Source of the DNA: Nocardia acidivorans NBRC 108247
GTDB taxonomy: Bacteria > Actinomycetota > Actinomycetes > Mycobacteriales > Mycobacteriaceae
Direction: 5' to 3'
Length of the DNA stretch: 64,000 nt
Assembly: GCF_001625085.1 (NCBI RefSeq)
Contig: NZ_BDAW01000026.1
Span: forward strand, 1-64,000
Shown piece by piece: positions 11,094-11,765 of the stretch. The notes beneath the pieces were generated by a model, which made no database searches, was not told the origin of the DNA, and was given only the letters and a program-made list of their open reading frames with translations. Position numbers and translations under genes: made by a program. The stretch's first letter is position 1. The number at the start of each line of letters is the position of its first letter.

Positions 11094-11225
11094 TCTAGGG
11101 TCCTATCGAAAAAATTCTAGATTTTTCCTTGAAAAGCTTCCGGAGGCGGGGTGCGGCTCGGTATGTTCCCGATGGCAAACAGTCAGTGACAGCACTGACC
11201 CTGTTCATCGATCGGAGCACCACCC

Positions 11226-11309
11226 ATGACCGGCATCATCTCTGACGTTCTCGTGCAGACCATCCTGAAGCTCATCGCGACCGGCTCGGCGAGCGGTTCC
11301 GCCAAGTAG
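11226..11309 (+). CDS. 27-residue hydrophobic/amphipathic peptide
   Basis: ATG 11226 with GGAG about 9 nt upstream, 27 codons, TAG. The peptide begins MTGIISDVLVQTILKLIATG and ends with a Ser/Gly/Ala tail and Lys. Third codon positions are mostly G/C, as in coding DNA here. The first 20 residues would form one amphipathic helix with no signal-peptidase site. It is followed 52 nt later by a strong hairpin, so it may be a stand-alone short transcript. Function unknown; membrane-active peptide, leader or small regulator are all open. Confidence 0.5.
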   Translation: MTGIISDVLVQTILKLIATGSASGSAK

Positions 11310-11360
11310 TCACGCGAGTGCCACCTTTCGGCTACTGCGCGGAAGTCGAGAAGGCGAGTG

Positions 11361-11395
11361 AGGGCCCGACCCCGGACGAGGGGATCGGGCCCTTC
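11361..11395 (+). terminator. Hairpin terminator, copy 1
   Basis: AGGGCCCGA-CCCC pairs with GGGGATCGGGCCCTT with a single bulge; the loop is about 6 nt. No long T tract, as is usual in high-GC actinobacteria. Ends the small-peptide unit. Confidence 0.7.
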
Positions 11396-11711
11396 GCCAT
11401 GTTCGGGGTGGGTGAGGCGTCCGCGACGGTGATGCGCTGGGTGTTCGCCGGGCCGGAAAAGTCCTCGAAATAAATCCTAAAAATCTCCTGCAAAAGTATT
11501 CCGTCCAGTTCGCCCGCTCTGTATCGTGTTGAACGGCAAACGATCAGTGACTTCCGGGCCAATGCGGCATCGGAATGCGATTCTCCCCCCGGATTCGCGT
11601 TCCGAACCCGGGGCGGTTCCCCTGCCTATATCCGCCGCTCCCAGGTGCGCCGTGGCGGTCCGAAGCACTGAGCCAACTTTCGGCTATCGCGCGGGATACC
11701 GAAGGTGCAAA

Positions 11712-11750
11712 CGAAGGGCCCGATCCATGACGAGGGGATCGGGCCCTTCG
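11712..11750 (+). terminator. Hairpin terminator, copy 2
   Basis: A perfect 15-bp stem (CGAAGGGCCCGATCC with GGATCGGGCCCTTCG) and a 9-nt loop, ending 15 nt before the TetR start codon. It would insulate or attenuate the TetR gene. Confidence 0.7.
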
Positions 11751-11765
11751 GTATTGTCTGGCGCA

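Follow-up and report, generated by a model that had tools for sequence, protein, structure and literature searches.

A duplicated and conserved micro-gene unit with a structured RNA element upstream of a tetR gene in Nocardia

Results

We analysed a window of 64,000 nucleotides (nt) from Nocardia acidivorans NBRC 108247 (contig NZ_BDAW01000026.1), a Nocardia contig with Nocardia sp. SYP-A9097 and N. concava among its closest named relatives. Between a gene for a CMD/alkylhydroperoxidase-like protein (10461-11093) and a gene for a TetR-family regulator (tetR, 11766-12398) lie two tandem short units of the same direction, unit 1 (11110-11396) and unit 2 (11471-11750), produced by a duplication. 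Both end with a structured RNA element, and the first also carries a micro-gene for a 27-residue peptide. The locus is real, conserved and, as far as the searched libraries show, undescribed. The best overall explanation is that it is a micro-gene for a mini-peptide of the mycolic-acid outer membrane (mycomembrane), made from an mRNA whose 3' end is structured and conserved; we would give this explanation a chance close to even, but still short of it.

Two tandem units derived from one duplication

Each unit consists of an AT-rich box, a -10 element, a 5' block (GGCAAAC..TCAGTGAC), a stem-loop block (TTTCGGCTA..GCGCGG) and a GC-rich terminator hairpin. A previous sequence-only reading of this DNA had described three blocks repeated in the same order in two units, each ending in a hairpin, and it had both the coordinates and the order right: GGCAAACAGTCAGTGAC is found at 11174-11190 and 11535-11551, GCCACCTTTCGGCTACTGCGCGG at 11320-11342 and 11672-11694, and the hairpin at 11361-11393 and 11712-11750, with offsets of 352-361 base pairs (bp). 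Missing from its list was the promoter region (AT-rich box and -10), which is duplicated as well. In the 7.57-Mb genome the best match to copy 1 is copy 2 (BLAST E 4e-9; the next match has an E of 0.025), and the only exact occurrences of GGCAAA-N4-CAGTGAC are at these two sites. Copy 2 being the sole other good match genome-wide, the recurrence of the blocks is not due to chance; a reading of the hairpin as a dispersed repeat was rejected, the genome being without other good copies. A phage search gave no copy of the unit DNA and a plasmid search no copy of the peptide, so there is no sign of a mobile element.

In a tree of the units, the copies of unit 1 fall into one clade (support 0.94) and those of unit 2 into a second (0.905), which fits a single duplication before the two-unit group diversified. 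The unit-2 clade takes in three loci without a motif-recognised first unit, one of which (L155) still has the peptide. The covariance model described below revealed, in at least 15 Nocardia genomes, a second copy of the RNA element a few hundred bp from the first. The earlier proposal of a duplicated micro-gene family or small-RNA-like unit is therefore upheld by the two clades, as well as by the purifying selection and the unlinked relatives in this genome reported below. The accompanying claim that only the first unit keeps a peptide holds in the window, where copy 2 has no such open reading frame (ORF), but not beyond it: several other lineages have a single unit, next to tetR, that itself encodes a peptide. 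For that reason, copy 2 probably lost its peptide ORF here. The gene upstream varies between loci while the unit and tetR stay linked, and a relative of the alpha/beta hydrolase is found downstream of tetR in 62 of 80 loci.

The 27-residue peptide is under purifying selection

The micro-gene of unit 1 (11226-11309, + strand) follows a GGAG Shine-Dalgarno sequence (11214-11217) and encodes the peptide MTGIISDVLVQTILKLIATGSASGSAK; its assignment as a gene is well supported. It is conserved in 18 Nocardia genomes. Recognisable orthologues are present in the first unit of 17 genomes, this one included, and genome G148 has a related peptide in its single unit. For 17 distinct genes the ratio of non-synonymous to synonymous substitution rates (dN/dS) is about 0.29 in the coding frame; the other two forward frames give about 0.88 and 2.8. 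The peptide is thus subject to purifying selection. G20, S21 and S25 are invariant in 16 sequences. There is no Sec signal, as charged or polar residues occur along the helix and the peptide is too short to hold a signal peptide plus a mature part. The net charge ranges from +1 to -3, with D, Q and K in the helical core. When the helical moment was compared with that of shuffles of the same residues, it exceeded most of them in most of the peptide types described below (p 0.004-0.06); p was 0.004-0.16 over all types and 0.04 for the window peptide (14-residue test). AlphaFold predicts, at moderate confidence, a helix (residues 14-27, pLDDT 68, loose tails) in the 36-residue type only, 27 residues being too short for prediction.

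The peptide belongs to a family found in Nocardia

A second peptide type (MLYNITDDSSDGNILTLLLGLLTSSLSTGSAQASGN, 36-40 residues) is present in 17 other genomes, in the same slot as the 27-residue type wherever it was read. Its dN/dS is 0.41 and the GS and SGN residues of its tail are invariant. Through weak matches we also reached micro-genes that are not linked to tetR, such as MSGSASDFLAEVLIKTIQGLFTGSAG, each with a Shine-Dalgarno sequence and a hairpin downstream. A profile made from this unlinked type (A1) alone recovers the tetR-linked peptides (E 1e-4 to 0.1), and the members share one design, with a predicted amphipathic helix and a tail of Gly and Ser but without a signal sequence. The combined profile matches 53 of the 148 Nocardia genomes, at as many as four loci per genome. 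Three loci lie in this genome: the window member, C7:56476 (VSGSASDFLSQVLIKTLQGLFTGSTGQ) and, as a weak match (E 0.01), C114:15073. The same profile gave no credible match among the non-Nocardia members of a 299-genome sample of the order, and profile searches of Pfam, NCBIfam and PDB with the peptides gave no match. As far as the searched libraries show, these sequences appear to represent an undescribed Nocardia-restricted family of signal-less amphipathic peptides.

A third candidate type, MLDSLMSVLVRKLLWSPGFGSATDQ from the N. exalbida/asiatica group, was left out of the count: it offered just three usable distinct genes, and its second half overlaps the self-complementary GGTCGCCG..CGGCGACC, so that its conservation may be that of an RNA structure.

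A structured RNA element ends both units

In unit 1 the element covers 11319-11396 on the + strand, with a stem-loop (H1, approximately 11326-11351) displaying a GCGCGG loop, followed by the terminator (11361-11393). In unit 2 it covers 11671-11750 (+ strand) and is the genus-wide element preceding tetR. A covariance model of H1 plus terminator (R1) matches unit 1 with an E of 1.5e-8 (fold z = -4.4) and unit 2 with an E of 2.9e-17. It detects the element in 143 of the 148 Nocardia genomes, before tetR wherever this was checked. In a DNA search, the last 60-100 bp before tetR were found to be kept in 34 of the 35 first-drawn Nocardia relatives (the exception is a 78%-complete assembly), and several of the 35 conserve most of the 681 bp. 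The sequence-only reading had asked, among other checks, for a search of relatives; blocks and peptide are both conserved there. The R1 matches in the order-wide sample outside Nocardia are scattered (E 3e-5 to 1e-2); they were not accepted and are regarded as background from GC-rich hairpins. A search of the whole window against Rfam gave no match.

Among 45 aligned loci, 11 pairs in the two helices have changed on both sides, versus 3.6 in shuffles (0 of 500 reach the observed value), and the signal vanishes when the partner is slid by 1-3 columns. In H1, 76 cells are G-U against 3 that are C-A; this excess means that the helix exists in the + strand RNA and is not merely a palindrome in the DNA. 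A structured RNA element with covarying, strand-specific helices is thus well supported. The H1 loop ACGCGCGGT is retained even where the stem is largely rewritten (N. thailandica L203, N. cyriacigeorgica L180). The terminator stem is lost in some species, in a few of which the left arm and loop of the hairpin are still conserved. At N. cyriacigeorgica loci L180, L185, L186 and L188, a single unit has promoter, 5' block, H1 and terminator, and its peptide ORF is degenerate (e.g. the TTG-started MTGVPSDVLGRSLACRRR...).

Promoters and 5' blocks of the units

The unit 1 promoter (11110-11167, + strand) combines the AT-rich box AAAAATTCTAGATTTTTCCTTGAAAA (approximately 11110-11136) with a -10 element, TATGTT (11162-11167), an arrangement which recurs in 51 distinct upstream sequences from named Nocardia loci. 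It is followed by the 5' block GGCAAACAGTCAGTGAC and its stem-loop GTCAGTG-ACAG-CACTGAC (11174-11199, + strand), which probably correspond to the first transcribed bases. At the 5' block, the unit 1 of relatives has related inverted repeats with loops of variable length. In unit 2 the promoter (11471-11527, + strand) has an AT-rich box and the -10 element TATCGT (11522-11527); no peptide ORF comes after its 5' block (GGCAAACGATCAGTGAC, 11535-11551, + strand). Promoter box, -10 and GGCAAAC block are all conserved across Nocardia loci. A generic sigma-70 scan found no -35/-10 pair on either strand; the units' own promoters escape it too, so it does not account for their -35 recognition.

tetR appears to have its own promoter

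tetR (+ strand, ATG at 11766) encodes a 210-residue regulator (PF00440, E 8e-8). Its orthologues in Nocardia are 84-99% identical, and residues 16-75 are 98-100% identical over 51 diverse loci. A putative promoter (11728-11757, + strand) overlaps the hairpin of unit 2: TGACGA (11728-11733) is inside the loop and TATTGT (11752-11757), 18 nt further on, lies after the hairpin and 8 nt before the ATG. Its columns are nearly invariant in the 45 aligned loci, although the loop reads ATGTCGA in a few species. With a conserved -10 so near to the ATG, tetR appears to have its own leaderless promoter, its transcripts probably starting at or next to the ATG. From this layout we infer that the upstream unit should terminate on the tetR promoter and not lead into tetR. 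The suggestion that one of the copies had been turned into a leader of the regulator was not supported: genus-wide, the tetR-proximal hairpin occupies the ancestral position, and it ends before the conserved tetR -10.

Two further points concern tetR. The terminator palindrome was considered as a TetR operator and is not favoured, because its stem is lost in several species and the DNA-binding domain of TetR is nearly invariant. In the first 30 codons (11766-11855) synonymous identity is about 0.74, versus about 0.60 in the rest of the gene; together with the near-invariance of residues 16-75, this agrees with a leaderless start under constraint and with an operator that is conserved.

Possible function and alternative explanations

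Nocardia make mycolates. We propose that the small monocistronic gene ahead of tetR would be transcribed from its own promoter into a short RNA starting near GGCAAAC, carrying H1 and stopping at the strong hairpin placed on the tetR promoter. Translation of the upstream copy would yield the 27-residue peptide, which, devoid of a signal sequence, would reach the mycolic-acid outer membrane with its amphipathic helix and Gly/Ser tail, be fixed there through mycoloylation of the tail serines, and act as a mini pore or structural peptide in the manner of the apparently unrelated PorA, PorH and ProtX of Corynebacterium. Copy 2, without a peptide, would keep promoter, structured RNA and terminator, and would insulate or tune tetR.

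PorA, PorH and ProtX are short, helical and without Sec signals (PMC12632848). Mini-proteins of this kind have fewer than about 60 residues and bear a mycolate ester on serine that a mycoloyltransferase installs. Their O-mycoloylation sites are serines in flexible Ser/Gly/Ala stretches (PMC11066868): ProtX is modified at Ser37, its penultimate residue (PMC5310785), and the PorA Ser15 site, as deduced from a published mutagenic primer, is LDVL-S-GSG (PMC5310785). The invariant G20, S21 and S25 agree with such a context, a strict consensus being non-existent, and by analogy the tail serines are probably O-mycoloylated as well. The Nocardia peptide shares with these proteins a tiny size, a predicted amphipathic helix, the lack of a signal, a lineage-restricted distribution and a mycolate-bearing host. 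It differs from them by its length (27 residues against 37-57) and by its organization: the genes stand singly, each with a terminator of its own, and there is a tie to a TetR gene. In Corynebacterium, porH and porA lie in tandem between groEL2 and a polyphosphate kinase gene (PMC5944148), whereas the micro-gene here is next to tetR. Pore activity and modification are proposed by analogy, and the envelope role is a reasoned proposal which we put forward tentatively, at somewhat less than an even chance. Several points weigh against it. Because mycoloylation has no strict consensus motif, Ser/Gly tails are weak evidence; the likeness to PorA, PorH and ProtX is put as an analogy and not as homology; the search of PDB profiles gave no solved relative; in the 14-residue moment test the window peptide gives just a borderline value; MspA-type porins are already present in Nocardia (PMC5944148). 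Moreover, numerous Nocardia lack any family member and retain a peptide-free RNA element, which means that the peptide is dispensable at the locus and that the RNA may be the main product.

The latter possibility is the main rival, since the RNA element has a much wider distribution than the peptide (143 of 148 genomes, versus about 35 of them for the peptide). The product would then be a Nocardia-wide regulatory small RNA, made of the 5' block, H1 with its ACGCGCGGT loop and the terminator, acting by base pairing or protein binding and hosting a peptide too in some lineages. The covariation, the conserved loop and the G-U bias of H1 argue for it, as do unit 2 and the many single units that persist peptide-free with promoter and 5' block. 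However, the element sits at the tetR promoter in every examined locus, so that its conservation may reflect termination plus tetR transcription; no Rfam family was matched, and the terminator stem is dispensed with in some species. We regard this alternative as a serious one, with roughly a third of the weight. As in dual-function small RNAs, a small ORF is embedded in a compact, structured transcript that has a terminator, and the structure is more widely conserved than the ORF; in contrast to them, different peptide types share one slot across Nocardia lineages, and the regulatory effect is putative. A broader and rather doubtful version is that a genus-wide regulatory RNA recurrently hosts different micro-ORFs (27 and 36-40 residues) for signal-less mycoloylated envelope peptides, as a dual-function RNA coupling mini-peptide production to the TetR neighbour; such mycoloylation substrates would then exist outside Corynebacterium.

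We consider it unlikely that the peptide serves as a membrane-active toxin, be it of type I, of a bacteriocin-like kind, or secreted and amphipathic like the modulins. The peptide is short, leaderless, amphipathic, multicopy and lineage-restricted, and a short monocistronic mRNA for a small, membrane-active-looking peptide recalls type I toxin mRNAs. But its near-neutral charge and the polar residues of its helical core are unlike those of a hydrophobic type I toxin, the conserved Gly/Ser tail would go unexplained, and neither plasmids (peptide) nor phages (unit) carry it; no antisense antitoxin RNA was identified, the opposite strand having been covered by the generic sigma-70 scan only, which misses the units' own promoters too. 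Even less probable is that the units serve tetR as leaders or attenuators, the peptide being a regulatory upstream ORF. The hairpin lies directly upstream of the regulator gene, as in such leaders, and overlaps the tetR start region; the link to tetR is constant while upstream genes change. Against this, the -10 beyond the hairpin is conserved, read-through of two successive terminators would be needed, the peptide family also exists at loci without tetR, and a regulatory codon pattern is absent. We consider it very improbable that only the tetR promoter and the terminator are conserved, peptide and 5' block being incidental: the survival of the hairpin left arm and loop in the few species whose stem is lost would fit, but coding selection in two peptide types, the covarying H1 with its strand-specific G-U pairs and the separate conserved promoter all speak against it.

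How mycomembrane mini-proteins without a signal are exported and targeted to the membrane is a standing question, addressed almost entirely in Corynebacterium. With its invariant tail serines, the compact, conserved and multicopy family of Nocardia would allow tests of protein mycoloylation and signal-less export outside that genus. The RNA element is unnamed and not in Rfam, and the genomes that have it include those of clinically important species.

Other observations on unlinked micro-genes

A conserved inverted repeat, GTGAA..TTCAC (elsewhere CTGAA..TTCAG; e.g. GTGAATCGTGCATGCTTCACATG), is found approximately 70-90 bp before unlinked micro-genes (L095-L125, L139, L234). It precedes most of the unlinked members and not the tetR-linked one, and may be a shared operator or an RNA stem. 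At L107, L116, L120 and L125 the micro-genes are followed by near-identical terminator hairpins (GGCCCATCGAATCGCGCGGGATTCGATGGGCC). One genome (G114) has three dispersed micro-genes of the MGSASSLLASVLVDLILAAIQSGSAGS type (L136, L140, L142), some with repeated upstream motifs (GTACTGGACATTCGTCCAGT-like). Finally, the protein encoded at L087 and L090 (Nocardia G084 and G085) is longer, seems to carry a signal peptide (MKGKFLKKIRTFGLLCVTAASIVLAGSGLAAAE...) and ends with GTGSAALVEGIAKLLATGSAGGPYCPGGAGCPKP, close to the motif of the micro-peptides. The BLAST E of about 1-2 is not significant alone; a relationship, if real, would locate the motif outside the cytoplasm.
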